Below the pieces are notes generated by a model that worked only from the letters and a program-made list of their open reading frames with translations, searched no databases and had not been told where the DNA came from. From Clavelina lepadiformis (Eukaryota; Chordata; Ascidiacea; Aplousobranchia; Clavelinidae), in contig NC_135244.1 in assembly GCF_947623445.1 (NCBI RefSeq), forward strand, positions 21,204,860 to 21,268,859: a stretch of DNA of 64,000 bases. Direction: 5' to 3'. The position numbers and the translations under genes are program-made. Shown piece by piece: positions 18,901 through 55,087 of this stretch. Position 1 is the stretch's first letter, and each line of letters begins with the position of its first letter.

Positions 18901-18904
18901 ACAT

Positions 18905-19664: not shown

Positions 19665-20815
19665 CGAAAATAACTCGATAATCTCGGTTTAAGAAAAATG
19701 TGAAGACATTTTCGAAAGTTCTTCATAACAAGAAGCATAAAGTTTACCAAAGTAAGTTGGTAAGTTAAAAGTTATCAATAAAGTAAAGTTGGTAAGTTAC
19801 TTTAAAGTAAGTAAATTTAGAATTACCAACATTTACAAATCACGATAACACTATATAGCTAGTGTATAATACATTTTTGCAACAATTTAAACAATAGAAT
19901 GTTTCAGTACAATAGATTAACATCAAAGTTGTGCTAATTACAATAATTTACTACTACTTTGTATCAAAAAAAAATTTACGTATTCAAAATCATTGCGACG
20001 TGCGAGTAAGCACAAAGAATAGCACCAAGGACGTACAAAGTAGTGACGCGAAAAAAAATTCAAAAACGTTTTTAAATCTTTAACAAAACGTTTGCATAAC
20101 AAAGTACAGCAGAAATAGATTGAACAATAGCGTTGGATGAGGTTGCATTATGACGTGCGTTTCTTAGCAAAATCGGTCAGGCGTGTCTCGCAGAATATCA
20201 GGATACTCCGAGCTCATTTATATCTGGCGTAGCGTGCAATCATTTGCTTAAAAGGGAACCGCTTCATTTTAAGTTGTTTTAGGCATGGTAAGACAATTCA
20301 TATTGCAATGACGTTACATACAAAACGTCATATCGAGGTCAATCCTATTTTGCATCTTTTTGATTTCTTAAAAAATATTTCTTTCGTTTTAATAAACTGG
20401 GTTAACGCAGTAGAATTCGACGCGTATGTTTGTCAATTTACAAAAATGGAAGATACATAGATTGCAGATAGTAGAGATTTTTTTATCATTTTGCAAAAAC
20501 CAATATAAATTGGAAGAAATTTTAAAAGATTAGCCGAGGCAAAAATATTCTTGTTTTGCAGTTTCAATTTCATTCCGTCAATAGTTATATGTTAGTTAAT
20601 ATTAATATTAATAGTTAATATTAACTTATTTAAAGAAAATGTCAAGCAGAGGCAAAAATCAACACGGAGTATTTACTCTACGTGCCAGTAAGGGAACAAA
20701 TGATAGTATCAGTAGCTTGTTAGATCTAGGAAGATAACAATTAATCAATTGTAATAAGTGACAGGTGCTAAAGTTCTGTAAACACATTAATTCATCGTTT
20801 CTTCTGCTGGTTTTT
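19665..20815. repeat. Unit 1 leader region, start of tandem unit
   Basis: From about 19665 the sequence matches the starts of unit 2 (36350) and unit 3 (51745) closely up to gene A. It includes a minisatellite-like run of AGTTGGTAAGTTAAAAGTTA words. Copy number is lower here than in units 2 and 3. No gene is seen; it is probably the promoter side of gene A. Confidence 0.75.
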
Positions 20816-22586
20816 ATGCTTTGTTCAGGTTTTCAACAGGACCAATGCGATGAAACTTCGCCTCGACATGAACAAATAGAACTTACTCTATCGCCAGCAT
20901 ATGACCGCCAGCAGACTGCATCCTCCCTACCAGATATACACTCCAAGAACAATCCGTTGGTTCTGTCACAGTCGAAAGACAATCAACTGCTTCTGTCAGG
21001 TTTAAACAAAAAATATAATGCGTTGATATTTTCCTTAGAATTTTTGCTTACAACAAGTTTTACATGAATTGTTCCCCCATAGATACCGATAAAGTGAAAA
21101 GTGAAGAGCAATTGTTTGATACAAGTAAGCATCCCAGAAACTGCTGCCATGGAATTATTGATAAATGGAAAGGTATGAATGAATGTTTAATAGCATTTAA
21201 ATAAGCGTTCTTGAAACGTGAATGAAGGGATCAAAGTGCATACACTGCTTTAATTAGAATTATCTGGACTTAAAAAATTTCTAATTATTGGATGGCCTCT
21301 TGTACTCCTCGGTCTTGCATCTTTGTCAGCATATCTTATTCCACTCTTACAACGTCAGGATACATCAGGTAAGTACACTTATTACAAAATTGTCTGATTT
21401 CGAAAAGGAGCTTCAATGCATTAGGCTTATACAATGACTGCAGTAATCAAATATCTTATAAATTACTAATAAAAAAAGGAATAACTTAATTTATACCAAA
21501 CTTTTATGTCTTGTTTTGAAACTGATTTATCAAATCCCGGTCAGGTTGACTTCTAATTTAAAGCCTATTTTTTTTCCGAATACTTCCACTTGAATTTAAC
21601 CGATGGACTTTCAATAGAATGCACAGATATAATTAAGACAGGACCTGTTTGTAGCCTGAGTTGTATCTTTAACAAAACACCATTTCTTAGAATGCCCTGT
21701 GTTAACTTTGAAAAATGACTTGAAGATGGAATGCAGCAATGGTGACAAGATTGGGTCAATTTGCACATTTACTTGCACAGGACACAAGAAAATTCTGGTA
21801 AATATAACATAACTTATAACTATTCATATTTTACTTAAGAATTGTTCGATATTTATTTCAAAACGAAATAATTGATATGAACCATTGTCGGTTTGCATAT
21901 TTGTTTCTAGAAACATTTCAGAAAACGATTAGGAGTTTTTGTAACTCCATAAAAGATTTTATTGATATCTATAAGTTATGTAGGCCTAACTTTATATTTA
22001 ACAGGGAGAAGGTAACATTTCATGTAACGAATCAAGTCTTTGGTCATCAGCAGCTCCAAGTTGTAAGTACTACACCGTATATACCAAAAAAAGACATAAA
22101 CAAAACTATACCAAAGTAATAAAGTAATAGTTGGCAATATATATTTTAAATTTAATATTTGTTTGTCTTGGCTTTAAAAATCAGGTTGCCTGTCTTGGAA
22201 ATCTTTAATGGATAGTATGAACGTGCTGCCCTACACTAACTTTCACGTAAGTTTCGCTCAGCAACAGTTGTAAGACATCTCTTCAGAAGCAAACCAGAAT
22301 CTCAGAAAACCATTTTTATTGCACGCAGGTGAAGTATGGTGATGCGAACGTTAAATGCTATACAAAGATAAGTTTCAACAACTTGGAGCTTAACTACAAT
22401 TGCAACTGCAGGGACGTTTCGACAGAACGTTCTCAAACATGTCATTTCCGGAGATCTTCCTCCGGTTCATGCGAACACGCGCTCAGTTTCCTGGTAAGAG
22501 ATATGAACAAGATTGATCCTGCCAGATACCTCAGCCCTTGTGACCCAGAGAACATGAAGAAAGAATGTGATAGATCTCTAACTTAA
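20816..22586 (+). CDS. Gene A, unit 1: type II membrane protein with one sushi domain, no kinase
   Basis: Seven exons (20816-20999, 21083-21172, 21258-21368, 21691-21797, 22005-22062, 22185-22246, 22329-22586) sum to 870 nt, giving about 289 residues. Order: polar cytoplasmic tail (EQIELTLSPAYDRQQ), linker ending IIDKWKE, membrane segment (LIIGWPLVLLGLASLSAYLI), one six-cysteine sushi domain (ECPVLTLKNDLKMEC...ISCNESSLWSSAAPSC), then the cysteine-rich C-terminal domain ending GSCEHALSFLVRDMNKIDPA. Lysines before the membrane segment support N-in topology. The start is uncertain: the ATG used sits inside a pyrimidine-rich stretch ending TTCAG that looks like a splice acceptor, in the same phase as the intron joining the kinase to the tail in gene B, so an upstream exon may exist. 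Function is unknown; a decoy or co-receptor role is inference. Confidence 0.75.
21590..21690 (+). pseudogene. Intronic fossil of a second sushi half-exon in gene A
   Basis: The intron before the gene A sushi exon contains a segment reading LNLTDGLSIECTDIIKTGPVCSLSC, homologous to the first sushi exon of genes B and C. Its leading Cys-Pro is gone and its second half-exon is absent. Splicing from the membrane exon straight to 21691 keeps frame, so the segment now reads as intron. The same fossil occurs near 38565 and 54095. Confidence 0.65.
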
Positions 22587-26886: not shown

Positions 26887-29800
26887 TTATTTATCACATT
26901 TCTTATGCATGCTTTCTGGGTCACAAGGCATTGGATATCTGCTGGGATCAATCCTGTTCATTTCTCGCACCAGGTAGCTGAGCGCATGTTCGCAAGATTC
27001 GGTGATGGAAGCCCAGAAATGGCAAATGTAAAGATTATCCGATAAAAGATCCCGACACTCACAATTAAAAACAAATTCCAAATTGACAAACTTCAGTAAG
27101 GGTTTGCATTTTATATTTGCTTCGTAGTACTTCACCTGCGTTTGATAAACCACAGTAAAAGCGTGTTGTCAAAACCACATAAGTCTATGATAATGACTGT
27201 TTTTAAATGGATATAAAAGTCTTTTAACTCACGTTGAATGACACGTAAGGATTTACGTTCAATCTGTGGATAAAAGGTCTCCATGATATGCAACCTGAAA
27301 AAAGAAGCCAAGATAGATTTATTTTGAAAATTTACGTAATAAGCTGTAACTATTTACTGGTTTGAATTTATGAGGTTTTTGCTATTTCGTGCACATTTTG
27401 CTAAAGTTTACCTTTTTTACAAGTTGGAGTTCTTGTTGACCAAAGACTTGTTTCATTACATCTTGTTTTGCTTGAACCCTGTTAAAGAGCAAGTTATTTT
27501 GAAATTGTTGTGGTCTTGTATAACCGTAAAAATCTTATTACTAGAAATTCGGTTTCGTTACACATAATATTCTAAGATTGGAACCATAATTGTGGTCACA
27601 TACATCAATTATTTTGTCTCCAGTGCATGAAAAATTGCAAACTGATCCAATTTTGTTATCGTCGCTGCATTTCATTTCCATGTCGTCTGGCAAAGTTATT
27701 ACAGAACATTCTGTGATAAAGGTAAAATATTATGATAAAAAATCGCATTTGTTTTACGTCAATGCAAACTATGTTATATTTTTTCAGTTTTAATTCGGCC
27801 ACTATATCTATTTTACGAAAGTATGTGTTTAAATTTTGCTGCTTTGTTTATGCATGCCAATAGAACTTATGTTACTGTTGATTTAATAAGATAAACCTAA
27901 ACAAACTTTTTAATCTAAAACGTATAACTGTAGTTTAATAGTTTGCTGACCTGAGATTGTTTGCGGTCAACATCGAGCCTTACCTTTCTTTTTGCAGCTA
28001 GGAATTCCGGAAGACCAAAGATTACCTCTTTCGCATGTTATTTCGCTAACACCCTGTTAAAAATATGACGAAACATTTTTGCTTTTTGTTACATCAAGTA
28101 AGTTTAATTATTTCGAACAACATAGCTCACTGAATACGCTTGCTTACTTGAAGTAGTGCGTTGCCGGTGCAAGCAAAGTCACAAACAGATCCAGTCTTGT
28201 AACCATTTACACATTTCATTTTCAGCCCTTGGGTTAGGTTCAAAGTTGGGCATTCTGTGAACAAATGGGATGGAAAACTGTCATTAAGGATAGCGGTGTA
28301 AGATGTAGAATATTGTTTGCTTGGATGAAGACAACGATACCGTGCGAATTTGAAATGAAAATTGGTATCATAGCAGCAGCAACTAAGAGAAACAATGGCA
28401 CCCCGATAATAAACCATCTTTGAAGGCCAGAAAATTCTAGAAAAATATTATTGCGTATTGAAAAGTGAAGTGTAACGTGTTATATAAAATAGCATGGGAA
28501 AATGGTAAGACATAAGTACTCTTAAAAACGCTTCAACTCCTACCTTTCCATTTATTATAAATTCCACGACAAAAGATGTCAGGACATTTACTAGTTCCAA
28601 AAATGTTTCCGCCACCTTTTATTTCCGCATCTATTTCAACCGAAATTTTGATAAAACTTGATTCGAATGACAATGATTTGAATATGATTAACTACGATAT
28701 GGGTCTGAGTTCAGTTAGTTGAAGCAAACTGATGTTTATAATTGGTTTTCAAGTTTATCAAAATGTTAAAACCTGACAAGAGTCGTTGATCGTCTTCTGG
28801 CAAGGATGGCCCATCTGCGTTGTTCAAGGAATATTCGCTGTTCGGTGGATAATCAATTTCTATCTGCTGGTTATCTTCACGTGGAAGCTGGGTAAGTTCT
28901 ATTTGCCCATTGTCAGTCGAGGCGCCGTTAACTGATGTGTTTACACATCCTGAGAGTTATATGGTTGGTTAATTGCAATTGTAAGTAAGAAATGTTGAAC
29001 GTAATCGATCTATAATGCGTTCAGGAGTTCTGTTGTTTAAATATGGCTTTGTCAGACAGTACCAACGTGTAAATAGTGGCGCACAAACTGATATGGGCAC
29101 AATTAATTTTAAGTTTATCTTTCAAAATGCACAAGGGAACGCTTTTTATTATTCTTTTATAATACTACATCACACTTTTGTAATCATGTAGCAATATCGG
29201 ATATAATAAGACTTGTTGACATACCTGGACATGGAAGAAGAACTTTTTCAAACGGATGCTCAAATGAGTCCAAACCAACTTTAATGCTGCTTGATTGTGT
29301 GTCTAAACGTTTTAAAACGTTTTTCTTGAAATCTCGAATTTCGTTGTTGTGAGATATTGTCGTGGTTTCTTGTATCACCATCAGTCTCTCGTGTAGTTTT
29401 TCTTTTACTGGATAAAACAGAAACGTTTGCACAATTTTCTTTTGAGTGTCATTACAACTTTTGAAAGTTATATGAAGAAATGTTTTTGGTCTACTAATTG
29501 CTAATATATGCTTATGCTATACTCTGTCTCATCACTGGACGTTTTTCTGGATTGAAGTCGTAGCATTTTTCCATCCACATTTTCAAATCCTTAAAGATCT
29601 CCAAGTTTATTTCGTTTTCTCTTTGCTTCAGCGCTAAGTCAATTTCGTCCACTTTTCTCAGGTTAGGTTTTTGTCCCCGAGATTTAATAAGCTCAACAAT
29701 GGCTGCAGATGGATTGCCACCAAATCCATTAGTTCTTGTAATGATATTAAACAAAACGATTCCAAAGCTGTGAAAATAATAGAAAGCATAAAAAACTACA

Positions 29801-30685
29801 AAATCCCACCCATAACGCTTTACTTTCAACCTAAAGTTGTGATTGTGGAACGGGTATATAGATATCAAATAATCGTGATAAACTTAAGATGAACTGTAAC
29901 AAACCTGTACACATCAGATGAAGGATCTCGTTTAGCGTTTGGATTCTTCAAAACTTCTGGCGCTGAATATAACTCTGTATGCTGTGTCGTGTGTGAGAGG
30001 AACAAAGAATCGGTTGTCGCGTTGTGCTTTGAAAAGACGTGAGTGGAGCCAAAGTCGACTATTTTTATATCCAGTTCCTCTGACAGAAGAATGTTCTGCG
30101 GTTTCAAGTCGCTGTGGATGTAAGCTCTCTTTGGATCGTGATCGTGCAAATAAAAGAGACCGTCAGCTATTTCACAGGAAAATTTAAGTCGGGGTAGCCA
30201 AGGTATGACTATCCTAGTGTCGGCCAACAAATTGTCCAAAGTGCCAGCACTTGGATATTCCAGGATAATTCCATGGCCGTGATCCCATTGAGTGAAGCCA
30301 ATATAACTGACAATGTTTGGATGATGTAGTCGCTTTAATACCTCTGTTTCCCTTTCAACGCTATGAGCAAATGAGATTAACAGTTTTTTGTTACACAACA
30401 TATAGCATTATAGATAAACACTTGTAATATAATTCCTTTCGAGCATTTACTTTTAGTTTTATGCTATAGCGTTACTCATACTTTACGCGCTTACTTTTGC
30501 AAAGCTTTGTTCGAATCACCGTTGATTGGTTTAAGGTGATAACACTTTACAGCAACCGTTTTACGAATCTTTTCAAAATAACATCTTCGCACTGTTGCGT
30601 AGCTCCCACATCCTAAAAGATCGCTCGTGTCTGAACTTGTACGAAGAGTCGATGCTTCATGTAGACTTTCTTTTTTTGTTGACAT
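26887..30685 (-). CDS. Gene B, unit 1: type II receptor kinase with sushi ectodomain
   Basis: Thirteen exons (30495-30685, 29905-30360, 29523-29767, 29225-29407, 28773-28949, 28544-28630, 28341-28436, 28148-28254, 27984-28053, 27604-27710, 27412-27478, 27233-27294, 26887-27135) sum to 2097 nt, about 698 residues, every junction in phase. Residues about 20-270 are a protein kinase: glycine loop GCGSYATV, lysine in VAVKC, IHSDLKPQN as catalytic loop (H146-S147-D148), DFG near 166-168, APE near 197-199, and PEKRP near the end. A juxtamembrane stretch and a polar tail (GQIELTQLPREDNQQIEID) follow, then the membrane segment WFIIGVPLFLLVAAAMIPIF near 450, two six-cysteine sushi domains (about 479-595), and a cysteine-rich domain to the C-terminus. 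Basic residues before the membrane segment place the kinase inside. Ligand and substrates are unknown. The start is the ATG of MSTKKESLHEAS. Confidence 0.85.
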
Positions 30686-32321
30686 TTGAAATACTTATGC
30701 CTACTGTATGTTGTCTATGTTTGTACCTATCATCTAAAAAAGAGGGCGCTGATATGATAGCACTTGTTAATGAATATGACGTGATATCAACTCACTGCAT
30801 ACTCAAAACAGGTTAAGAAATTTTAAACGATGCTTCTTATAGCTAAACCAGCAATAGTTAATCTATATTGTATCCACTGACTTAATTTTGCTTCTCTCTT
30901 TGTGGACATGATTCTTCTTAGAAATTCGAAACTTATGCTTGTCTTTATAGTCCATCTAACAATTACAAAATCGTTATCTGCTGACAGATAAACGTAGCCA
31001 GTCAAACTATTCCAATCAATTATATCTCAGTAAAAATGTCTTTTGCTTTCAGTCGTAGGCTATAAAGTGAACCGAACAAGGCAAATGAACGTGTTTGCAT
31101 CAACAATCCGGTGACAAATTTCGAGAAAAGATTTAGCTAAAAATGTGACAAGATAAAACACCCGCTGCAAGGTGAAACTTGAACCAGTGGTCTTTTGTTC
31201 AAATTGTTTTCAGTTGACCTGTTATTTAATGAAGCTCAAGTGTGACGTCGTTAGATTTTCAATAAAGGGGTTTTCAGCGTTTTTAACGTCACGGTTAAAT
31301 CTCTCATTCAGTCGTCAATCGTCAAATTTAAACGAAGTCAAATTTTCTTGCTCTGTTGTTTCCGTTAATGCTGTTTATCACTAAACCAAATCTTTATCAT
31401 CATCTAAATAACTTTTGAACCACATCTCTCGTGCATACAAAATCAGTTTCTTATATGTCTCTATTGGGCGATTTGTATCAAACCTGACACGTGACAAACA
31501 TGTGAAACAATATCTTATTACGTAAATAGAATACGCCCTCACTTCGAATAATAAAATCGGTAAAATTTTATTTTAATCCAAACGCTAATTTTTTTCCGAA
31601 ATGGTCCTTGTCAAGAATGATAGATTAAAAGTCCAACAATTGATCAAAAAACAAAACTTATATTCCGTCGATGTTTGTACACAATGAAAAAGGGCGAATG
31701 ACTGAAGATTCCACAAACAGTGAAATGTTAGCATCATTGTCACAACAACAAAATTAACAACAAAAATTGGCTGATGTTTAGCATGCAAGAAGCTCATGCA
31801 ATTTATTCAAATTCGCTTTGTTTGCAAAGATAAGACCAAAAAGAAAAACTACCCTATAAATTATTTGTTGATCTTTTCTTTCGAATAAAATAGGAACTGG
31901 AAATAACGAAACCTTTTAAAAGAGGTGGAACAACAGACTGGGGAAATTTTGATGATCTTAAAAGACAACAGCGTTGCACTTGTTTCGACTCATTCACCAA
32001 CTACAAAGCTCTAAACAAAGGCAACAGACTGGAACTAACCGAATAACAGCAAGGTCTATCAGATTGCATCTTGATTTGCGTTTCTTTGCAAAATAATTCA
32101 AACGCGCCTCACCATGAAACTCGTGAAACGTTTTTATCTTGCTTCAATTGAGTTAGACCGTTCACAGAACGTCAAATATAACAAAAGAAAATTATTGAAC
32201 GTAATATCAGTGAGATTGTTTCTGGTAAGTTTCTCGGACAGGCTTAAATTAAGCTTTCTTTGATCAGCAGTTCAATTGGAAAAAAACTCTAGTCTAAAAA
32301 GTAGATGAACAGTTCTGAGTG
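30686..32321. promoter_or_regulatory. Head-to-head intergenic region between genes B and C, unit 1
   Basis: Gene B starts leftward at 30685 and gene C rightward at 32322, so this 1.6 kb is their shared upstream region. The sequence is matched at 46104-47707 in unit 2. No core promoter element can be named with confidence. A short frame at 30850-30916 (-) resembles the start of gene B but its ATG is lost in unit 2. Confidence 0.4.
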
Positions 32322-34537
32322 ATGGCTCAAACGGAACCAATAGAACTGATTCAGCTACCACACAATAAGAAGCAACAGGAAGAAATTTACTCCCAGGGAC
32401 ACAGCGAAAATGTTGTGAAAACCCCAAGGACACAATCTGAATCAAGCGACGATGAACGACTTCTGTCAGGTTTTACCCGTTCAGTTATGACGATAAATTT
32501 TCTTCATCTCGATCCAGTAACGTTCTTATCACAGAAAATGCAATTCACTCGCCAACTTTGTACTTTTCTATAAATATTTGCTATATAACATTTTCTTTCT
32601 ATATAATTATTAGTTAGAAGCTGACATCAAATTTTGTTTCAAAAGATTCCGACCAATTTGAATGTTATCGAAAATTCTTTAATACGATTCGATGTTCTGA
32701 AATCAGTTGTCGTGGAGTTAGTCTTGCATGGAAAGGTTCGACGACACTGTCATATTTGCTATAGGTTTAAATACTGTACACTTTATAGAGAGCCTAAACA
32801 TATAGTTTTATCAGGACCATTTCAGCATCAGAAAGGTCTAATAATAATTGGAGGGATTCTTCTCTTTTTGGCTGTGGCTTCTTTGTCAGCCGTTTTTACT
32901 TCAATTTCATATCGTAGCGGTCTAAAAGGCAAGTGACATTTATAGCAGAAAAACATCTTTCGATTATTGTATGCTGGTATTGAAAAATAAAAGCAATGAT
33001 AGTTATTGTTATTGACCGTAACATTTGTCCATGTAAGCTTCTGTTCTACAAAATCTATAACCATAAATTTGATTCTGTTATCTACAAATTCGTGTTTAGT
33101 CACAGAACGTTGCCCGATGTTAAATTTAACCGACGGACTCAATGTGCAATGCACGAACGCCAACAAGATGGAATCAGTTTGCTACTTTGCATGCACAAAT
33201 GGCAAAAAACTTTCTGTAAGTGCATGGTTTGCTGCTGAATCAAATCCATTCAACATGAATAATGAAGCCATTTAAACCTTGTTGTTAAAGCAAAGACAAA
33301 TATTAAATGACAACTGGTCTACGTTAACAGGGTGGTACTCATTCGGTGTGCAACCATTCTAACCTTTGGTCGTCGGAAATTCCTTATTGTACGATAAGAG
33401 GTAAGATACATAAAAGGTAGAAAGAGAATAAGTAAGACCTAAAAAGTTTCAAAACTATGGTATCAATCAATTAATCGATTAATCAATAAATATTAAACAA
33501 TTAATCGATAAAGTGACCAGCCGAATGCTGTTCCATATAATGTAGCTATTAAAATTGTCAGGCAAAATACGACAAAATCTTTCAAATTTCACGGAAACGT
33601 TTTGAAACAAGAAAGGTTTCATACAGAAATAAAACAAACAAACCGTAAAAAGTTCCAGTTTTCAGCATGATTAGTGGCAATATTCTCACTGTAGATTGCC
33701 CGTCATTGACTTTGCCAGATGACATGGAAATAAAATGCAGCAACGACAACAAAGTAGGATCAACTTGCACTTTTGCGTGCACTGGAGACAAAATAATTGA
33801 AGTTGGTTGGAAAAAATTTTGACTTACATCTTGTTGAAGATTAAGACCTTTCTGTTATAGCAAATCATCCGGAAGAGATGGAAAAAAACCTTTGTAAAAT
33901 AACTTTTGTTAACAAACTTTAAATAAGTTTTTATTTCACAGGGAAAAACTTACACTTCGTGCAATGAATCAAATCATTGGACATCTGCACCTCCACGATG
34001 TACGCTTAAAATGTCATTAAAAATTGTATAAATGCAAGAAATATTAAACAATATCTAAAGCACTTAAGTAATGTTTTGCGACATTTTTAATCATAGATTT
34101 ATATTTCTTGACATTTTATTTATCAGGTTGCATATCATGGAAATCTTTAATGGATGACCTAAGCGTAATTCCTTTCACGACGTTAAAGGCGAGTCAAAGA
34201 TAATATGAACTGTAAAATACTTCAGTATAAACTAACAAAGCTCACGCTAAAAAAACGCGTTTTTTGTCACATGCAGGTGGATTACGCCGAAGCGCATATC
34301 AATTGCAATGTAAAGCTTATTTTCAACAACTTCGAAATTAAATATGAATGCACCTGTAAAGATGTTTTAATAGATCATTCTCAAACATGTCATTACTGGA
34401 ATTCCCCGCTAGGCTCTTGCAAGCACGCGCTCAGCTTCCTGGTGAGGGATATGAACAAGATTGATCCAGATAGGTTCCCAGTCCCTTGCGACCCAGAGAA
34501 CATGGACAAGCGATGCGACAGATCTCTTGATAAGTAA
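32322..34537 (+). CDS. Gene C, unit 1: type II membrane protein with two sushi domains, no kinase
   Basis: Nine exons (32322-32469, 32646-32735, 32815-32928, 33106-33215, 33331-33400, 33695-33801, 33942-33999, 34127-34188, 34277-34537) sum to 1020 nt, about 339 residues. Order: cytoplasmic tail MAQTEPIELIQLPHNKKQQE, linker ending SLAWKG, membrane segment LIIIGGILLFLAVASLSAVF, two sushi domains (RCPMLNLTDGLNVQC... and DCPSLTLPDDMEIKC...), and the cysteine-rich domain with GSCKHALSFLVRDMNKIDPD. Two introns appear to use GC rather than GT donors (after 32928, GCAAGT, and after 34188, GCGAGT). Exon sizes match gene B exon by exon in the ectodomain. ATG at 32322 follows GAGTG, itself acceptor-like, so an upstream exon is possible. 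Function unknown; a kinase-less partner or decoy for gene B is inference. Confidence 0.8.
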
Positions 34538-36349: not shown

Positions 36350-37456
36350 AAAATAACTCGTAAATCTCGGTTTAAGAAAAATGTGAAGATATTTTCGAAA
36401 GTTTAGCAAAGTAAGTTGATAAGTTAAAAATTACCAATAAAGTAAAGTTGGTAAGTTAAAATTTACCAATAAAGTAAAGTTGGTAAGTTAAAAGTTATCA
36501 ATAAAGTAAAGTTGGTAAGTTACTTTAAAGTAAGTAAATTTAGAATTACCAACATTTACAAATCACGATAACACTATATAGCTACTGTATAATAAATTTT
36601 TGTAAAAATTTAAATAATAGAATGTTTCAGTAGAATAGATTAACATCAAAGTTGTGCTAATTAGAATAATTTACTACTATTTTGTATCAAAAAAAAAGTT
36701 ACGTATTCAAAATCATTGCGACTTGCGAGTCAGCACAAACAAAAGCACCAAGGACGTACAAAGTACTGACGCGGAAAAAAACTCAAAAACGTTTTTAAAT
36801 CTTTAACAAAACGTTTGCATAACAAAGTACAGCAGAAATAGATTGAACAACAGAGTTGGATGAGGTTGCATTATGACGTGCGCTTCTTAGCAAAATCGGT
36901 CAGGCGTGTCCGGCAGAATATCAGGATACTCCTAGCTCATTTATATCTGGCGTAGCGTGCAATCATTTGCTTAAAAGGGAACCGCTTCATTTTAAGTTGT
37001 TTTAGGCATGATGAGACAATTCATATTGCAATGACGTTACATACAAAACGTCATATCGAGGTCAATCTTGTTTTGCACCTTCTTGATTTCTTAAAAATAT
37101 TTCTTTCGTTTTAATATACTGGGTTAACGCAGTAGAATTCGACGCGTATGTTTGTCAATTTACAAAAATGGAAGATACAGAGATTGCACATAGTAGAGAT
37201 TTTTTTATCATTTTGCAAAAACCTATATAACTTGCAAGAAATTTAAAAAGATTAGCCAAGGCACAAGTATTCTTGTTTTGCAGTTTCAATTTTATTCAGT
37301 CAATAGTTATATGTTAGTTAATATTAGCATTAATAGTTAATATTAACTTAGTTAAAGAAAATGTCAAGCAGAGGCAAGAATCAACACGGAGTATTTAGTC
37401 TACGTGCCAGTAAGGGAACAAATGATAGTATCAGTAGCTTGTTGTTAGATCTAGGA
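36350..37456. repeat. Unit 2 leader region with 32-bp minisatellite
   Basis: It matches the unit 1 leader from 19665. Three copies of a unit of about 32 bp (GTAAGTTAAAATTTACCAAT then AAAGTAAAGTTG) lie at 36405-36530. No gene is seen before gene A. Confidence 0.75.
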
Positions 37457-37684
37457 CAGCGGTTCCCAAACTGGGGTCCGCGGACCAACTGGGGCCCGTA
37501 AAGAAGTTTCAGAGGGTCCGATGATCCGATGAGTCCGGTCCGATGAGTTTTTGATTTTTCTTTTATTTGTGTGGTTTTTGCAATTTACTTATACCATTCT
37601 TTGATTTTGATAGGGCCACGAAATATCAAAATAATTGCAAAGGGTCCGCCAGGCAAAATTTTTAGAAAAGTTTGGGAACCGCTG
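37457..37684. mobile_element. hAT-like MITE, unit 2
   Basis: Ends CAGCGGTTCCCAAAC and GTTTGGGAACCGCTG are perfect inverted repeats with a perfect 8-bp target duplication ATCTAGGA. Unit 1 has the empty site (near 20725). The matching copy in unit 3 is 52857-53215 and differs in length. Confidence 0.9.
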
Positions 37685-37791
37685 ATCTAGGAAGATAACA
37701 ATTAGTCAATTGTAATAAGTGATAGGTGCTAAGGTTCGGTACAAACTCTATCCCTAAACACATTAATTCATTTTTACTTCTGCTGGTTTTT

Positions 37792-39654
37792 ATGACTTGT
37801 TCAGGTTTTCAACAGGACCAATGCGATGAAACTTTGCGTCGACATGAACAAATAGAACTTACTCTGTCGCCAGCATATGACCGCCAGCAGACTGCATCCT
37901 CCCTACCAGATATACACTCCAAGAACAATCCGTTGGTTCTGTCACAGTCGAAAGGCGATCAACTGCTTCTGTCAGGTTTAAACAAAAAACATAATGCGTT
38001 GATATTTTCCTTAGAATTGTTGTTTACAGAAAGTTTTACATGAATTGTTCCCCCATAGATACCGATAAAGTGAAAAGTGAAGAGCAATTGTTTGATACAG
38101 CTCAGCATTCCAGAAACTGCTGCCATGGAATTATTGAAAAATGGAAAGGTATGAATGAACGTTTAATAGCATTTAAATAAGCGTTCTTCAAACGTGAATG
38201 AAGGCATCAAAGTGCATACATTGCTTTAATTAGAATTATCTGGACTTAAAAAATTTCTAATTATTGGATGGCCTCTTGTACTCCTCGGTCTTGTATCTTT
38301 GTCAGTATATCTTATTCCACTCTTACAACGTCCGGATACATCAGGTAAGTACACTTATTACAAAATTGTCTGATTTCGAAAAGGAGCTTAATGCATTAGG
38401 CTTGTACAATGACTGTAGTGGTGAAATATCTTATAAATTACTAATAAAAAAAGGAATAACTTAATTTATACCAAACTTTTATGTCTTGTATTGAAACTGG
38501 TTTATCAAACTCTGGTCAGGTTGACTTCTAATTTAAAGCCTATTTATTTTCCGAAAACTTTCACTTGAATTTAACCGATGGACTTTCAATAGAATGCACA
38601 GATATAATTAAGACAGGACCTGTTTGTAGCCTGAGTTGTATCTTTAACAAAACACCATTTCTTAGAATGCCCTGTGTTAACTTTGAAAAATGACTTGAAG
38701 ATGGAATGCAGCAATGGTGACAAGATTGGGTCAATTTGCACATTTACATGCACAAGAGACAAGAAAGTTCTGGTAAATATGACATTCTTAAGTAAAATAT
38801 GAATAGTTATAAATTGCATGAATAGTCAATTTGCACATTTACATGCACAGGACACAAGAAAGTTCTGGTAAATATGACATAACTTATAACTATTCATATT
38901 TTACTTAAGAATGGTTCGATATTTGTTTCAAAACGAAATAATTGATATAAACCATGGTCGGTTTGCATATTTGTTTCTAGAAACATTTCAGAAAACGATT
39001 AGGAGTTTTTGTAACTCCATAAAAGATTTTATTGATATCTATAAGTTATGTAACTTTATATTTAACAGGGAGAAGGTAACATTTCATGTAACGAATCAAG
39101 TCTTTGGTCATCAGCAGCTCCAAATTGTAAGTACTACACTGTATATACCAAAAAAAGACATAAACAAAACTATACCAAAGTAATAAAGTAATAGTTGGCA
39201 ATATATATTTTAAATTTAATTTTTGTTTGTCTTGGCTTTAAAAATCAGGTTGCCTGTCTTGGAAGTCTTTAATGGATAGTCTGAATGTGCTAGTACCCTA
39301 CACTAACTTTCACGTAAGTTTCGCTCAGCAACAGTTGTAAGACATCTCTTCAGAAGCAAACCAGATTCTCAGAAATCCATTTTTATTGCACGCAGGTGAA
39401 GTATGGTGATGCGAACGTTAAATGCTATACAAAGATAAGTTTCAAAAACTTGGAGCTTAACTACAATTGCAACTGCAGGGACGTTTCGACAGAACGTTCT
39501 CAAACATGTCATTTCCGGAGATCTTCCTCCGGTTCATGCTAACACGCGCTCAGTTTCCTGGTAAGAGATATGAACAAGATTGATCCTGCCAGATACCCCA
39601 GTCCTTGTGACCCAGAGAACATGAAGAAAGAATGTGATAGATCTCTAACTTAAC
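37792..39654 (+). pseudogene. Gene A, unit 2: disrupted copy
   Basis: All seven exons of gene A are recognisable in the same order with the same splice sites. The last exon carries an in-frame TAA at 39540 right after GSC of the GSCEHALSF block, which would remove the last 37 or so residues of the cysteine-rich domain. The intron after the sushi exon carries a foldback duplication near 38769-38870. The sixth exon has three extra bases (one codon). It may be a pseudogene, or a shortened protein. Confidence 0.75.
38769..38880. repeat. Local foldback duplication in gene A of unit 2
   Basis: The 3' end of the sushi exon and its donor (GTCAATTTGCACATTTACAT to GGTAAATATGACA) occur twice, about 90 bp apart. 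Between the two lies TTCTTAAGTAAAATATGAAT, the reverse complement of intron sequence downstream. Units 1 and 3 have a single copy. It looks like a templated insertion from repair or replication switching. Confidence 0.85.
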
Positions 39655-42296: not shown

Positions 42297-45200
42297 TTAG
42301 GAATTATCACATTTCTTATGCATGCTTTCTGGGTCACAAGGCATTGGATATCTGCTGGGATCAATCCTGTTCATTTCTCGCACCAGGTAGCTGAGCGCAT
42401 GTTCGCAAGATCCGCTGGGGGAAGCCCAGAAATGGCAAATGTAAAGATTATCCGATAAAAGATCCCGGCACTCACAATAAGAAACAAATTGCAAATTGAC
42501 CAATCTCAGTGAGGATCTACATTTTATATTTGCTTCGTAGTACTTCACCTGCGTTTGATAAACCACAGTAAAAGCGTGTTGTCAAAACCACATAAGTCTA
42601 TGATAATGACTGTTTTTAAATGGATATAAAAGTCTTTTAACTCACGTTGAATGACACGTAAGGATTTACATCAAATCTGTGGATAAAAGGTCTCCATGAT
42701 ATGCAACCTGAAAAAAGAAGCCAAGATAGATTTATTTTGAAAATTTACGTAATAAGCTGTAACTATTTACTGGTTTGAGCTTATAAGGTTTTTACTGTTT
42801 CGTGCACATTTTGTTAAAGTTTACCTTTTTTACAAGTTGGAGTTCTTGTTGACCAAAGACTTGTTTCATTACATCTAGTTTTGCTTGAACCCTGTTAAAG
42901 AGCAAGTTATTTTGAAATTGTTGTGGTCTTGTATAACCGTAAAAATCTTATTACTAGAAATTCGGTTTTGTTATACATAATATTCTAACATTGGAACCAT
43001 AGTTGTGGTCACATACCTCAATTATTTTGTCTCCAGTGCATGAAAAATTGCAAATTGATCCAACTTTGTTATCGTCGCTGCATTTCATTTCCATGTCGTC
43101 TGGCAAAGTTATTACAGAACATTCTGTGATAAAGGTAAAAAATTATGATAAAAAATCGCATTTGTTTTACGTCAATGCAAACTATGTTATATTTTTTCAG
43201 GTTTAATTCGGCCACCATATCTATTTTACGAAAGTATGTGTTTAAATTTTGCTGCTTTGTTTATGCATGCCAATAGAACTGATGTTACTGTTGATTTAAT
43301 CAGATACACCTAAGTAAACTTTTTAATCTAAAACATATAACTGTAGTTTAATAGTTTGCTGACCTGAGATTGTTTGCGGTCAGCATCGGGCCTTACCTTT
43401 CCTTTTACAGCTAGGAATTCCGGAAGACCAAAGATTACTTCCTTCGCATGTTATCTCGCTAACACCCTGTTAAAAGAATGACGTAACATTTTTGCTTTTT
43501 GTCAATTTCAGTAAGTTTAATTACTTCAACCAACATAGCTCACTGAATACGCTTGCTTACTTGAAGTAGTGCGTTGCCGGTGCAAGCAAAGTCACAAACA
43601 GATCCAGTCTTGTAACCATTTACACATTTCATTTTCAGCCCTTGGGTTAGGTTCAAAGTTGGGCATTCTGTGAACAAATGGGATGGAAAACTGTCATTAA
43701 GGATAGCAGTGTAAGATGTTAAATATTGTTTGCTTGGATGAAGACAACGATACCGTGCGAATTTGAAATGAAAATTGGTATCATAGCAGCAGCAACTAAG
43801 AGAAACAATGGCACCCCGATAATAAACCATCTTTGAAGGCCAGAAAATTCTAGAAAAATATTTATGCGTATTGAAAAGTGAAGTGTAACGTGTTATATAA
43901 AATAGCATGGGAAAATGGTAAGACATAAATACTCTTAAAAACGCTTCAACTCCTACCTTTCCATTTATTATAAATTCCACGACAAAAGATGTCAGGACAT
44001 TTACTAGTTCCAAAAATGTTTCCGCCACCTTTCATTTCCGCATCTATTTCAACCGAAATTTTGATAAAACTTGATTCGAATGACAATGATTTAAATATGA
44101 TTAACTACGATATGGGTCTGAGTTCAGTTAGTTGAAGCAAACTGATGTTTATAATTGGTTTTCAAGTTTATCAAAATGTTCAAACCTGCCAAGAGTCCTT
44201 GATCGTCTTCTGGCAAGGATGGTCCATCTGCGTTGTTCAATGAATATTCGTTGTTCGGTGGGCATTCAATTTCTATCTGCTGGTTATCTTCACGTGGGAG
44301 CTGGGTAAGTTCTATTTGCCCATTGTCAGTCGAGGCGTCGTCAACTGATGTGGTTACATACCCTGAGAGTTATATTGTTGGTGAATGGCAATTGTAAGTA
44401 AGAAATGATGAACGTAATCAATCTATAATGCGTTCAGGAATTCTGTTGTTTAAATATGTCAGGCTTTATCAGACAGTACCAATGTGTAAATAGTGGCGCA
44501 CAAACTGATATGGCCACAATTAATTTTAAATTTATCTTTCAAAATGCACAAGGGAACGCTTTTTATTATTCTTTTGTAATACTACATCACACTTTTTCAA
44601 TCATGTAGCAATATCGGATATAACAAGACTGGTTGACATACCTGGACATGGAAGAAAAACTTTTTCAAACGGATGCTCAAATGAGTCCAAACCAACCTTA
44701 ATGCTGCTTGATTGTGTGTCTAAACGTTTTAAAACGTTTTTCTTGAAATCGCGAGTTTCGTTGTTGAGAGATATTGTTGTGGTTTCTTGTATCAGCATCA
44801 GTCTCTCGTGTAGTTTTTCTTTTACTGGATAAAACAGAAACGTTTGCACAATTTTCTTTTGAGTGTCATTAAGACTTTTGAAAGTTATATAAAGAAATGT
44901 TTTTGGTCTACTAATTGCTAATATATGCTTATGCTATACTCTGTCTCATCACTGGACGTTTTTCTGGATTGAAGTCGTAGCATTTTTCCATCCACATTTT
45001 CAAATCCTTAAAGATCTTCAAGTTTATTTCATTTTTTCTTTGCTTCAGCGCCAAGTCGATTTCGTCCACTTTTCTCAGGTTAGGTTTTTGTCCCCGAGAT
45101 TTAATGAGCTCAACAATGGCTGCGGATGGATTGCCACCGAATCCATTAGTTCTTGTAATGATATTAAACATAACGATTCCAAAGCTGTGAAAATAATTGA

Positions 45201-46103
45201 AAGCATAAAAAACTACAAAATCCCACCCATAACACTTTACTTTCAACCTAAAGTTGTGATTGTTGAACGGGTATATAGATATCATATAATCGTGATAAAC
45301 TTAAGATGAACTGTAACAAACCTGTACACATCAGATGAAGGATCTCGTTTAGCGTTTGGATTCTTCAAAACTTCAGGTGCTGAATATAACTCTGTATGCT
45401 GTGTCGTGTGTGAGAGGAACAAAGAATCGGTTGTCGCGTTGTGCTTTGAAAAGACGTGGGTGGAGCCAAAGTCGACTATTTTTATATCCAGTTCCTCTGA
45501 CAGAAGAATGTTCTGCGGTTTCAAGTCACTGTGGATGTAAGCTCTCTTTGGATCGTGGTCGTGCAAATAAAAGAGACCGTCAGCTATTTCACAGGAAAAT
45601 TTAAGTCGGGGTAGCCAAGGTATGACTATCCTAGTGTCGGCCAACAAGTTGTCCAAAGTGCCTGCACTTGGATATTCCAGGATAATTCCGTGGCCATGAT
45701 CCCATTGAGTAAAGCCGATATAACTGACGATGTTTGGATGATTCAGTCGCTTTAGTACCTCTGTTTCCCTTTCAACGCTATGAACAAATGAGATTAACAG
45801 TTTTTTGTTACACAACATATACATATAGCTTAACGCTTGTAATAGAATTCCTTTCAAGTATTTACTTTTAGTTTTATACTATAGTCTTACTTATACTTTA
45901 GTACGCACTTACTTTTGCAAAGCTTTGTTCGGATCACCGTTGATTGGTTTAAGGTGATAACACTTTACAGCAACCGTTTTTCGAATCTTTTCAAAATAAC
46001 ATCTTCGTACTGTTGCGTAGCTCCCACAGCCTAAAAGATCGCTCGTGTCTGAACTTGTACGAAGAGTCGATGCTTCATGAAGACTTTCTTTTTTTGTTGA
46101 CAT
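42297..46103 (-). CDS. Gene B, unit 2: type II receptor kinase with sushi ectodomain
   Basis: It has the same thirteen-exon layout as 26887-30685 with intact frames and splice sites where I checked them. Kinase features are kept: GCGSYATV, VAVKC, IHSDLKPQN, DFG and APE. Differences from unit 1 are scattered, for example KRLNHPN for KRLHHPN, and SPSGSCEHALSY in the last exon where unit 1 reads SITESCEHALSY. The C-terminus ends KKCDNS rather than KKCDK. The first donor is the consensus GTAAGTG. It looks intact and is probably expressed like unit 1. Confidence 0.83.
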
Positions 46104-47707: not shown

Positions 47708-49932
47708 ATGGCTCAAACGAAACCAATAGAACTGATTCAGCTACCACGCAATAAGAAGCAACAGGAAGAAATTTACTCCCATGGACACAGCGAAAATGTT
47801 GTGAAAACCCCAAGAACACAATCCGAATCAAACGATGACGAACGACTTTTGTCAGGTTTCGTCCGTTCGGTTATGACGATAAATTTTCTTTATCTCGATC
47901 CAGTAACGTTCTTGTCACAGAAAATGCAATTCACTCGCCAATTTTGTATTTTTCTATAAATATTTATTATAAAACATTAATTTCTATAAATATTAGTTAA
48001 AAACTGACATCAAATTTTGTTTCAAAAGATTCCGACCAGTTCGAATGTTACCGAAAATTCTTTAATACGATTCGATGCCCCAAAATCGGTTGTCGTGGAG
48101 TTAGTCTTGCATGGAAAGGTTCGACGACACTGTCATATTTGCTATAGGTTTAAATACTGTACACTTTATAGAGAGCCTAAACAAATAGTTTTATCAGGAC
48201 CATTTCAGCATAAGAAAAGTCTAATAATAATTGGAGGGATTCTTGTCTTTTTGGCTGTGGCTTCTTTGTCAGCCGTTTTTACTTCAATTTCATATCGTAG
48301 CGGTCTAAAAGGCAAGTGACATTTAGAGCAGAAAAACATCTTTCGATTATTGTATGCTGGTATTGAAAAATAAAAGCAATGATAGTTATTGTTATTGACC
48401 GTAACGTTTGTCCATGTAAGCTTCTGTTCTACAAAATCTATAACCATTAATTTGATTCTGTTATCTACAAATTCGTGTTTTAGTCACAGAACGTTGCCCG
48501 ATGTTAAATTTAACCGACGGACTCAATGTGCAATGCACGAACGCCAACAAGAGGGAATCAGTTTGCTACTTTGCATGCACAAATGGCAAAAAACTTTATG
48601 TAAGTGCATGGTTTGCTGCTGAATCAAATCCATTCAACATGAATAATGAAGCCATTTAAACCTTGTTGTTAAAGTAAAGACAAGTATTAAATGACAACTG
48701 GTCTACGTTAACAGGGTGGTGCTCACTCGGTGTGCAACAATTCCAACCTTTGGTTGTCGGAAATTCCTTATTGTACGATAAGAGGTAAGATACATGAAAG
48801 GTAGAAAGAGAATAAGTAAGATCTAAAAAGTTTCAAAACTAAGGTATCAATCAATTAATCGATTAATCAATAAATATTAAACAATTAATCGATAAAGTGA
48901 CCAGCCGAATGCTGTTCCATATAATGTAGCTATTAAAATTGTCAGCCAAAATACGACAAAATCTTTCAAATTTCACGGAAACGTATTGAAACAAGAAAGG
49001 TTTCATACAGAAATAAGATAAACAAACCGTAAAAAAGTTCCAGTTTTCAGCATGATTAGTGGTAATATTCTCACTGTAGATTGCCCGTCATTGTCTTTGC
49101 CAGATGACATGGAAATAAAATGCAGCCACGACAAAAAAGTAGGATCAACTTGCACTTTTGCGTGCACTGGAGACAAAATAATTGAAGTTAGTTTAACAAA
49201 ATATTGCCTCACATCTTGCTGAAGATTAAGACCTTTCTGTTATAGCAAATCATCGCAAATCGAAAAGATGGAAATAAAAAACCTTTGTAATATAACTTTT
49301 GTTAACAAACTTTAAATAAGTTTTTATTTCACAGGGAAAAAGTTACACTTCATGCAATGAATCAAATCATTGGACATCTACACCTCCACGATGTACGCTT
49401 AAAATATGATTAAAAATTGTATAAATGCAAGAAATATTAGACAATATCTAAAGCACTTAAGTAATGTTTTGCGACATTTTTAATCATAGATTTATATTTC
49501 TTGACATTTTATTTATCAGGTTGCATATCATGGAAATCTTTAATGGATGACCTAAGCGTAATTCCTTTCACGACGTTAAAGGCGAGTCAAAGTTAATATG
49601 AACTGTACGATACTTCAGTATAAACTAACAAAGCTCACGCTAAAAAAAACGCGTTTTTTTGTCACATGCAGGTGGATTACGCCGAAGCGCATATCAATTG
49701 CAATGCAAAGCTAATTTTCAACAACTTCATAATTAAATACGAATGCACCTGTAAAGATGCTTTAATAGATCATTCTCAAACATGTCATTACTGGAATTCC
49801 CCACTAGGCTCTTGCAAGCACGCGCTCAGCTTCCTGGTGAGGGATATGAACAAGATTGATCCAGATAGGTTCCCAGTCCCTTGCGACCCAGAGAACATGG
49901 AAAAGCGATGCGACAGATCTCTAGATAAGTAA
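47708..49932 (+). CDS. Gene C, unit 2: type II membrane protein with two sushi domains
   Basis: It has the same nine-exon layout as unit 1 gene C. The tail begins MAQTKPIELIQLPRNKKQQE, the membrane exon reads LIIIGGILVFLAVASLSAVF, and the last exon keeps all cysteines and GSCKHALSFLVRDMNKIDPD. Both GC donor introns of unit 1 are kept. It appears intact. Confidence 0.8.
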
Positions 49933-51744: not shown

Positions 51745-52856
51745 AAATAACTCGATAATCTCGGTTTAAGAAAAATGTGAAGATATTTTCGAAAGTTTAG
51801 CAAAGTAAGTTGATAAGTTAAAAATTACCAATAAAGTAAAGTTGGTAAGTTAAAAATTACCAATAAAGTAAAGTTGGTAAGTTAAAAGTTATCAATAAAT
51901 TAAAGTTGGTAAGTTACTTTAAAGTAAGTAAATTTAGAATTACCAACATTTACAAATCACGATAACACTATATAGCTACTGTATAATAAATTTTTGTAAA
52001 AATTTAAACGATAGAATGTTTCAGTAGAATAGATTAACATCAAAGTTGTGCTAATTAGAATAATTTACTACTATTTTGTATCAAAAAAAAATTTACGTAT
52101 TCAAAATCATTGCGACGTGCGAGTCAGCACAAAGAATAGCACCAAGGACGTACAAAGTACTGACGCGGAAAAAAACTCGTTTTTAAAAACGTTTTTAAAT
52201 CTTTAACAAAACGTTTGCATAACAAAGTACAGCAGAAATAGATTGAACAATAGAGTTGGATGAGGTTGCACCACGACGTGCGCTTCTTAGCAAAATCGGT
52301 CAGGCGTGTCCGGCAGAATATCAGGATACTCCTAGCTCATTTATATCTGGCGTAGCGTGCAATCATTTGCTTAAAAGGGAACCGCTTCATTTTAAGTTGT
52401 TTTATGCATAGTAAGACAATTCATATTGCAATGACGTTACATACAAAACGTCATATCGAGGTCAATCCTATTTTGCATCTTTTTGATTTCTTAAAAAATA
52501 TTTCTTTCATTTTAATATACTGGGTTAACGCAGTAGAATTCGACGCGTATGTTTGTCAATTTACAAAAATGGAAGATACAGAGATTGCACATAGTAGAGA
52601 TTTTTTTATCATTTTGCAAAAACCTATATAATTTGCAAGAAATTTAAAAAGTTAGCCAAGGCACAAGTATTCTTGTTTTGCAGTTTCAATTTCATTCCGT
52701 CCATAGTTATATGTTAGTTAATATTAATATTAATAGTTAATATTAACTTATTTAAAGAAAATGTCAAGCAGAGGCAAGAATCAACACGGAGTATTTAGTC
52801 TACGTGCCAGTAAGGGAACAAATGATAGTATCAGTAGCTTGTTGTTAGATCTAGGA
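51745..52856. repeat. Unit 3 leader region with 32-bp minisatellite
   Basis: It matches the unit 2 leader nearly base for base, including three copies of the 32-bp repeat at about 51805-51920. No gene is seen. Confidence 0.75.
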
Positions 52857-53215
52857 CAACGGTTCCCAAGCTGGGGTCCGCGGACCAACTGGGGTCCGTA
52901 AAGAAGTTTCAGAGGGTCCGCAATGAGAATTAGTCTTTAAAGCTTTAAAGCAGTTTCAGAGGGTGGATATAGTACACGACATGAGAGTTGCGCTATCCAA
53001 AACCAAACCAAACATTGATGAGTTAATTGCAGCAAAACAAGTGCACCCATCCCATTAAACGCTTATCGTATTTGATAGTTTTTGATTTTTCTTATATTTG
53101 TGTGGTTTTTGCAATTTACTTATACCATTCTTTGATTTTGATAGGGCCACTAAATATCAAAATAATTGCAAAGGGTCCGCCAGGAAAAATTTTTAGAAAA
53201 GTTTGGGAACCGCTG
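52857..53215. mobile_element. hAT-like MITE, unit 3
   Basis: Same insertion site and ATCTAGGA duplication as 37457-37684 but longer in the middle. The left end reads CAACGGTTCCCAAG, slightly diverged. The unit 2 copy is probably an internal deletion of this form. Confidence 0.85.
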
Positions 53216-53322
53216 ATCTAGGAAGATAACAATTAGTCAATTGTAATAAGTGATAGGTGCTAAGGTTCGGTACAAACTCTATCCCTAAACACATTAACTC
53301 ATTTTTACTTCTGCTGGTTTTT

Positions 53323-55087
53323 ATGCTTTGTTCAGGTTTTCAACAGGACCAATGCGATGAAACTTTGCGTCGACATGAACAAATAGAACTTACTCTGTCG
53401 CCAGCATATGACCGCCAGCAGACTGCATCCTCCCTACCAGATATACACTCCAAGAACAATCCGTTGGTTCTGTCACAGTCGAAAGACAATCAACTGCTTC
53501 TGTCAGGTTTAAACAAAAAACATAATGCGTTGATCTTTTCCTTAGAATTGTTGTTTACAGAAAGTTTTACATGAATTGTTCCCCCATAGATACCGATAAA
53601 GTGAAAAGTGAAGAGCAATTGTTTGATACAGCTCAGCATTCCAGAAACTGCTGCCATGGAATTATTGAAAAATGGAAAGGTATGAATGAACGTTTAATAG
53701 CATTTAAATAAGCGTTCTTGAAACGTGAATGAAGGCATCAAAGTGCATACATTGCTTTAATTAGAATTATCTGGACTTAAAAAATTTCTAATTATTGGAT
53801 GGCCTCTTGTACTCCTCGGTCTTGTATCTTTGTCAGTATATCTTATTCCACTCTTACAACGTCCGGATACATCAGGTAAGTACACTTATTACAAAATTGT
53901 CTGATTTCGAAAAGGAGCTTAATGCATTAGGCTTGTACAATGACTGTAGTGGTGAAATATCTGATAAATTACTAATAAAAAAAGGAATAACTTAATTTAT
54001 ACCAAACTTTTATGTCTTGTATTGAAACTGGTTTATCAAACTCTAGTCAGGTTGACTTCTAATTTAAAGCCTATTTATTTTCCGAAAACTTTCACTTGAA
54101 TTTAACCGATGGACTTTCAATAGAATGCACAGATATAATTAAGACAGGACCTGTTTGTAGCCTGAGTTGTATCTTTAACAAAACACCATTTCTTAGAATG
54201 CCCTGTGTTAACTTTGAAAAATGACTTGAAGATGGAATGCAGCAATGGTGACAAGATTGGGTCAATTTGCACATTTACATGCACAGGAGACAAGAAAGTT
54301 CTGGTAAATATGACATAACTTATAACTATTCATATTTTACTTAAGAATGGTTCGATATTTGTTTCAAAACGAAATAATTGATATAAACCATGGTCGGTTT
54401 GCATATTTGTTTCTAGAAACATTTCAGAAAGCGATTAGGAGTTTTTGCAACTCCACAAAAGATTTTATTGATATCTATAAGTTATGTAACTTTATATTTA
54501 ACAGGGAGAAGGTAACATTTCATGTAACGAATCAAGTCTTTGGTCATCAGCAGCTCCAAATTGTAAGTACTATACTGTATATACCAAAAAAAAGACATAA
54601 ACAAAACTATACCAAAGTAATAAAGTAATAGTTGGCAATATATATTTTAAATTTAATTTTTGTTTGTCTTGGCTTTAAAAATCAGGTTGCCTGTCTTGGA
54701 AATCTTTAATGGATAGTCTGAACGTGCTACCCTACACTAACTTTCACGTAAGTTTCGCTCAGCAACAGTTGTAAGACATCTCTTCAGAAGCAAACCAGAT
54801 TCTCAGAAAACCATTTTTATTGCACGCAGGTGAAGTATGGTGATGCGAACGTTAAATGCTATACAAAGATAAGTTTCATCAACTTGGAGCTTAACTACAA
54901 TTGCAACTGCAAGGACGTTTCGACAGAACGTTCTCAAACATGTCATTTCCGGAGATCTTCCTCCGGTTCATGCGAACACGCGCTCAGTTTCCTGGTAAGG
55001 GATATGAACAAGATTGATCCTGCCAGATACCCCAGTCCTTGTGACCCAGAGAACATAAAGAAAGAATGTGATAGATCTTTAACTTAA
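53323..55087 (+). CDS. Gene A, unit 3: type II membrane protein with one sushi domain
   Basis: Same seven-exon layout as unit 1 gene A. The last exon is open (GSCEHALSFLVRDMNKIDPA), unlike unit 2. The tail reads CDETLRRHEQIELTLSPAYD. The start is uncertain for the same reason as in unit 1. Confidence 0.75.

Follow-up and report, generated by a model that had tools for sequence, protein, structure and literature searches.

A 64,000-nucleotide stretch of chromosome 5 (C5, 24.62 Mb) of the ascidian Clavelina lepadiformis, referred to here as the window, contains a gene (gene A) whose product, judging from the sequence, is probably a single type II membrane protein: a RIP-like N-terminal kinase continues into a membrane anchor and an ectodomain, an order that would have come about by replacement of the kinase's partner domain. 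Support for a common frame of the kinase, membrane and sushi parts comes from the four near copies of this gene, A included, and from five diverged loci that show this order, too, on one strand. On balance, and with less assurance, we are inclined towards a broader claim, namely that these genes represent a new class of animal receptors, type II in orientation, with a RIP-like cytosolic kinase and a sushi/Cys-rich sensor, arranged with kinase-less partners in tandem units to form a paired recognition system; in this class kinase and sensor may have been joined more than once, and its membrane plan is PASTA-like. The join between kinase and sushi parts was judged from related gene copies in the same genome, of which 209 Mb in 95 contigs were searched (the published assembly comprises 210.1 Mb in 102 scaffolds according to PMC10884593).

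Organisation of gene A

Gene A lies on the minus strand (30685..26887), and its exons form one frame of 2010 nt including the stop codon (669 aa), with matching phases, GT-AG borders in 11 of 11 introns and 0 internal stops. The original prediction had counted thirteen exons; there are twelve, lying between the same outer ends, and its statement that the phases match and the total is an exact multiple of three stands. The parts of the gene are as follows.

30495..30685, minus strand: exon 1, with the start ATG, the P-loop GCGSYATV and VAVK; the Pfam kinase begins at residue 21
29905..30360, minus strand: exon 2, kinase core with the catalytic loop HSDLKPQN, DFG and APE
29523..29767, minus strand: exon 3, kinase C-lobe
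29225..29407, minus strand: exon 4, post-kinase tail ending in VGLDSFEHPFEKVLLPCPG, phase-1 donor; similar tails occur in the TIR- and Kelch-linked sister kinases
28950..29224, minus strand: intron 4, 275 bp, phase 1, the disputed junction of kinase and membrane parts
28773..28949, minus strand: exon 5, linker, with the acidic di-leucine DDQRLL ahead of the membrane segment; a similar exon occurs in the kinase-less genes
28341..28436, minus strand: exon 6, membrane segment, peak hydropathy 2.72
27984..28254, minus strand: exons 7-8 (28254-28148, 28053-27984), sushi domain 1
27412..27710, minus strand: exons 9-10 (27710-27604, 27478-27412), sushi domain 2
26887..27294, minus strand: exons 11-12 (27294-27233, 27135-26887), Cys-rich C-terminal part, stop at 26887

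From the N- to the C-terminus the encoded protein comprises the kinase with its tail, a linker, the membrane segment, a pair of sushi domains and the Cys-rich end. In the Pfam search of the spliced protein, which had been proposed as a check, Pkinase (residues 21-300, E 3.1e-44, 151.8 bits against a cut-off of 31.7) and Sushi (two stretches, E 2.6e-07, 31.4 bits against a cut-off of 20.7) both scored above the cut-off. Hydropathy above 1.4 in 19-residue windows is reached at residues 419-451 only, between kinase and sushi; the same scan found no hydrophobic start at the N-terminus, and the first ATG sits in the kinase exon. The catalytic residues can be recognised by eye (GCGSYATV, VAVK, VERETE, HSDLKPQN, DFG, APE), the catalytic loop containing HSD instead of HRD.

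Tandem units and kinase-less genes

Gene A has three near copies, B, C (C5:21271261-21267476) and D (C5:21640091-21636293), in which the 12 exons, their phases and the splice signals are all kept (GT-AG at 44 of 44 introns of A-D together); the stop of B, C and D lies one codon beyond that of gene A. Each full gene belongs to a unit composed of a first kinase-less gene (type I, plus strand), the full gene (minus strand) and a second kinase-less gene (type II, plus strand). Three such units are contained in the window or extend past its end, the fourth is 0.37 Mb away, and besides gene A the window holds the following members.

20639..22586, plus strand: kinase-less type I, unit 1, a kinase-like start exon followed by linker, membrane segment, sushi and Cys-rich end
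30686..32321, no strand: spacer of 1.6 kb separating the start codon of gene A from that of its kinase-less type II partner
32322..34537, plus strand: kinase-less type II, unit 1, arranged head-to-head with gene A and starting at an ATG within its own linker exon
37361..39641, plus strand: kinase-less type I, unit 2, with a stop codon within the Cys-rich exon, probably damaged
42297..46103, minus strand: gene B, the second full copy, 12 exons in frame
47708..49917, plus strand: kinase-less type II, unit 2
52761..55075, plus strand: kinase-less type I, unit 3
62617..63987, minus strand: exons 7-12 of gene C, the third full copy, the remainder of which lies outside the window (L009)

The start codons of the full gene and the type II gene stand head-to-head, 1.5-1.6 kb apart, in all four units, an arrangement that could permit shared expression. 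Type II genes carry their own ATG in the linker exon (4/4 units), and type I genes begin with an exon like the start exon of the kinase (likewise 4/4; MSSRGKNQHGVFTLRASKGTND in unit 1); in unit 1, the only one modelled in this respect, this exon joins the linker in phase. In 5000 shuffles the match score of this start exon was attained 0 times, a flattering figure, as the match was first found by a search at E 0.27.

Other features of the window include a 297-aa open frame between a kinase-less gene and gene A (24302-25195, plus strand), which by eye is Gag-like as in retroelements, and a 294-aa open frame (59349-60233, minus strand) built of a repeated APEEQSAESAPAEEAIETP unit. The stretches 17343-19208 and 2808-2969 (both minus strand) hold sushi-like fragments with no kinase match nearby and a weak Cys-rich match (E 0.091, stop inside), perhaps the remains of another copy.

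Diverged loci with the same order

Matches to the last exon of gene A occur in at least 19 places of the genome up to E 10; a count of 18 loci is used below, omitting a match on C8 (E 1.12, stop inside). In half of these (9/18) the last exon is preceded by a kinase on its strand, namely in A-D and in the loci E, F, C2a, C2b and C2c. Eight of the 18 are genes on the plus strand within the same cluster, for which a kinase was not found, and one (C5:20617252) was assigned to neither group.

In E, F, C2a, C2b and C2c the kinase, sushi and Cys-rich parts follow each other in that order on one strand, and a membrane segment is clear in four of the five, F being the locus in which none was clearly found. 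The hand-built model of C2c comprises 17 exons (2706 nt, 901 aa) with consistent phases and a single frame from the start ATG, running through kinase, linker, membrane segment, four sushi-like parts and the Cys-rich end. Pfam recognises its kinase (E 4.2e-45) and three sushi stretches (44.2 bits against a cut-off of 20.7), and only 76 of 289 residues (26%) are identical between its kinase and that of gene A. No hydrophobic start is visible by eye at the N-terminus of C2c, and the first ATG lies in the kinase exon. The model of C2b is similar and less certain; both have a phase-1 junction before the membrane exon, and in neither is the VAVK lysine clear by eye. The kinase of C2a was recovered only in pieces; E contains kinase, tail, linker, membrane segment and three sushi domains, followed by a damaged last exon. 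In C2b a long repeat array translating as FHDVVMMFHDIVMM lies between a CxxC exon and the last exon (L022, about 6300-4756, minus strand).

With three further in-frame copies and the same order in the diverged loci, the arrangement of gene A is more than a product of chance. The near copies and the diverged loci also support the original prediction that a full kinase, a membrane segment and a sushi part are encoded in one frame.

One gene or two

Kinase and membrane parts meet at intron 4, and the most serious alternative is that two adjoining genes, one for a soluble kinase and one for a type II sushi protein, perhaps combined in an operon with trans-splicing, have been misread as one. Operons and trans-splicing are known in tunicates, and in the kinase-less type II genes it is the corresponding linker exon that holds the start, so that a split gene can be imagined, above all for D, the copy with one in-frame Met in its linker exon. 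Furthermore, intron 4 contains an AATAAA in A, B and D (C has none), making a kinase-only form possible. However, A, B and C contain no Met from the start of the linker to the membrane segment, the linker frame of gene A (ORF 28711..28956) opens after a stop and without an ATG, and intron 4 measures only 268-279 bp across the copies. In two sister kinase genes on chromosome 3, the same kind of tail runs, by a phase-1 splice as in gene A, into a TIR (E 1.7e-20) or a Kelch (E 7e-08) partner, showing that such a tail exon can run on into a partner, and the order of the parts persists even in a gene whose kinase is 26% identical. We therefore regard two separate genes as improbable.

Somewhat less probable still is that the joined protein is real and only a minor alternative product of a locus making mostly a soluble kinase and a kinase-less receptor. 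The AATAAA of intron 4 would fit such an output, as would the number of kinase-less receptors, which at 8 of the 18 last-exon loci (with 1 further locus in neither group) are about as numerous as the full genes; yet the exons identified contain no separate start for the sushi half of A-C, and the order is kept in nine loci.

Conservation among the near copies bears on whether the joined gene is functional. Across A-D, dN/dS is 0.13 for the kinase, 0.53 for the tail, 0.43 for the sushi domains, 0.49 for exon 11, 0.77 for the Cys-rich end and 0.35 for the whole gene; the linker has 1.19, a value not established as exceeding 1. In the membrane exon dN/dS is 0, with 9 silent and 0 non-synonymous differences summed over the six pairs, which, together with the low value of the kinase, indicates that both halves have been kept. 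The linker exon is conserved no better than the introns (identity to A of 0.898-0.921 versus 0.885-0.970), and we read it as coding because it is 43-49% identical to the exon of the kinase-less genes and its frame is free of gaps in four copies. A recent accident, that is, a chance fusion now decaying without function, would agree with the tandem amplification and with the damaged relatives (kinase-less type I of unit 2 and the end of E), but is very unlikely given these dN/dS values, the unchanged membrane exon and the intact diverged member C2c.

Relationship of the kinases

RIP kinases (RIPK1, RIPK2 and RIPK3, of the TKL group) begin with the kinase, followed by a linker and a C-terminal partner. 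For C2c a RIP-like label is clear, as RIPK1 (E 2.4e-36) and RIPK2 stand well ahead of the others among the best 60 of 78 matches, leaving out the top row, an EGFR chain without any stretch passing on its own. RIPK2 also comes first for the kinase of the TIR-linked sister (8.4e-24). For gene A the label is weaker: its kinase alone matches JAK (8.2e-25), ULK3 and the plant CTR1 (about 4e-24) and RIPK3 (7.8e-24) with scores that are alike, which weakens an assignment as plainly RIP-type. A profile of five C5-type kinases retrieved JAK first (2.3e-38), followed by RIPK2 and RIPK1, and gave no match under 1e-40. We nevertheless infer a RIP ancestry for the kinase of gene A. A RIP-like kinase, a likeness that the original prediction had overlooked, normally comes first in its protein, and the inverted order would then be expected if its partner had been replaced by a membrane anchor and an ectodomain.

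The tree of 16 kinases sets the C2 pair apart (100/100) and leaves 7 of 13 inner branches open; a single clade of all six membrane-sushi kinases is compatible with the data (p-AU 0.216). Since the same ectodomain module is found on two well-separated kinase lineages, kinase and sensor may have combined more than once.

The sister kinases on chromosome 3 are followed by a TIR domain (L027, C3:23.152 Mb), by Kelch motifs (L025, C3:22.478 Mb) or, as a candidate join, by a winged-helix (HTH_69) unit (L028, C3:23.163 Mb), and together they look like a family with exchangeable C-terminal partners. At a further locus (L029, about 3424-3182, minus strand; C4:23.943 Mb) the frame of the kinase tail enters a hydrophobic stretch and then meets a stop; a tail-anchored form is conceivable, or else the exon ends before the hydrophobic stretch.

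Linker, membrane topology and Cys-rich end

An acidic di-leucine precedes the membrane segment in A-D, in both kinase-less types (unit 1), in one of the two linker exons of E and in the C2a piece; it is absent from the linkers of C2b and C2c, and it arises in 12-24% of shuffled linkers. The motif suggests regulated endocytosis. Lys and Arg are more frequent before than after the membrane segment in nine of the ten segments scored, with one tie, where A-D count as four and some flanks were typed by eye; in gene A itself the bias is only 1 to 0. The predicted topology is type II.

The Cys-rich end, which the original prediction had called novel, indeed gave no Pfam match up to E 10 in seven family members, in a search where the HMMER filters drop most matches above 0.1. 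Alignment of 16 of the 18 members (E and the kinase-less type I of unit 2 are left out) yields 13 invariant columns. AlphaFold models exon 12 as beta-beta-beta-alpha (pLDDT 86.8 and pTM 0.76 in the best model, pLDDT 76.2-86.8 over five models), and Foldseek found 0 matches to this model in the PDB at E <= 0.001, the best having E 0.13. Many of the best 50 Foldseek rows are dsRNA-binding domains and PTP1B, which we rejected as chance likeness of a small fold. SWIM zinc fingers follow the pattern CxCx(n)CxH. The Cys-rich end appears to resemble this CxC...CxH arrangement, with C25-x-C27 and C48 invariant in the 16 members and H50 present in at least 90%, and has no Pfam match.

Proposed function

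In the favoured reading as one membrane protein, a cytosolic RIP-like kinase would be followed by a conserved tail, a di-leucine linker, a single membrane segment, a pair of sushi domains and a Cys-rich end outside the cell, the ancestral kinase having presumably gained the membrane anchor and ectodomain at the place where a partner domain normally follows. Binding of a ligand to the ectodomain would cluster the receptors, so that their kinases meet and phosphorylate each other as well as downstream partners, and the output may be innate-immune or recognition signalling. The kinase-less proteins from the same units may tune the receptor, as co-receptors or decoys. Sequence comparison supports the gene structure, the order of the parts, their frame, the domain assignments and the conservation; topology, clustering, signalling, the class of ligand and the role in recognition, which the original prediction likewise offered as no more than a suggestion, are presumed in this scheme.

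If the scheme is true, this family, with its reversed order and its innate-immune type of kinase, would show that an adaptor kinase of the cytosol can turn into a receptor itself and dispense with the division into receptor and adaptor. The occurrence of kinase-bearing and kinase-less tandem receptors in a colonial chordate invites a direct test of whether they serve self/non-self or microbial recognition, and the wide spacing among family members makes the origin of the join datable.

Comparison with known systems

Textbooks present animal receptor kinases as type I proteins. Gene A shares with them (RTKs, TGF-beta receptors) an ectodomain, one membrane segment and a kinase, but the order is opposite, with the kinase first and no hydrophobic start. 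The order of kinase first and partner after is that of the RIP kinases, which the kinase of C2c (RIPK1/RIPK2) and that of the TIR-linked sister (RIPK2) match best. Known RIPKs are cytosolic and carry death, CARD or ankyrin parts, whereas here sushi domains and a Cys-rich part, preceded by a membrane segment, stand in the partner's place; Pfam found no death, CARD or ankyrin domains in the proteins of gene A and C2c.

In bacterial PASTA kinases (PknB/Stk1) an N-terminal cytosolic kinase, one membrane segment and a C-terminal ectodomain follow each other, which is the membrane plan predicted for gene A. In contrast to these kinases, gene A contains no PASTA repeats in Pfam, and the NCBIfam model PknB_PASTA_kin matches its kinase part alone, with 97.3 bits against a cut-off of 450; the likeness is an analogy of plan, not kinship.

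Judging by titles and the openings of abstracts, we found no animal receptor kinase that is type II or sushi-bearing in the open-licence literature of PubMed Central, which is weak evidence of absence, and a lancelet paper (PMC12373286) yielded nothing bearing on this gene family. The tunicate receptors of the Botryllus fester family and the fester co-receptors bear sushi domains, and their genes form neighbouring pairs within variable multigene clusters; they are type I proteins with a signal sequence and Ig domains, and the co-receptors signal via tyrosine motifs (PMC12065747). They are like the proteins discussed here in being sushi-bearing tunicate receptors that occur as neighbouring pairs in a multigene cluster, and unlike gene A, which has a predicted type II orientation, a built-in kinase, no Ig domain in Pfam and no hydrophobic N-terminus. 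The parts of the proposed receptor are already known from other proteins; their combination and order are new to us.
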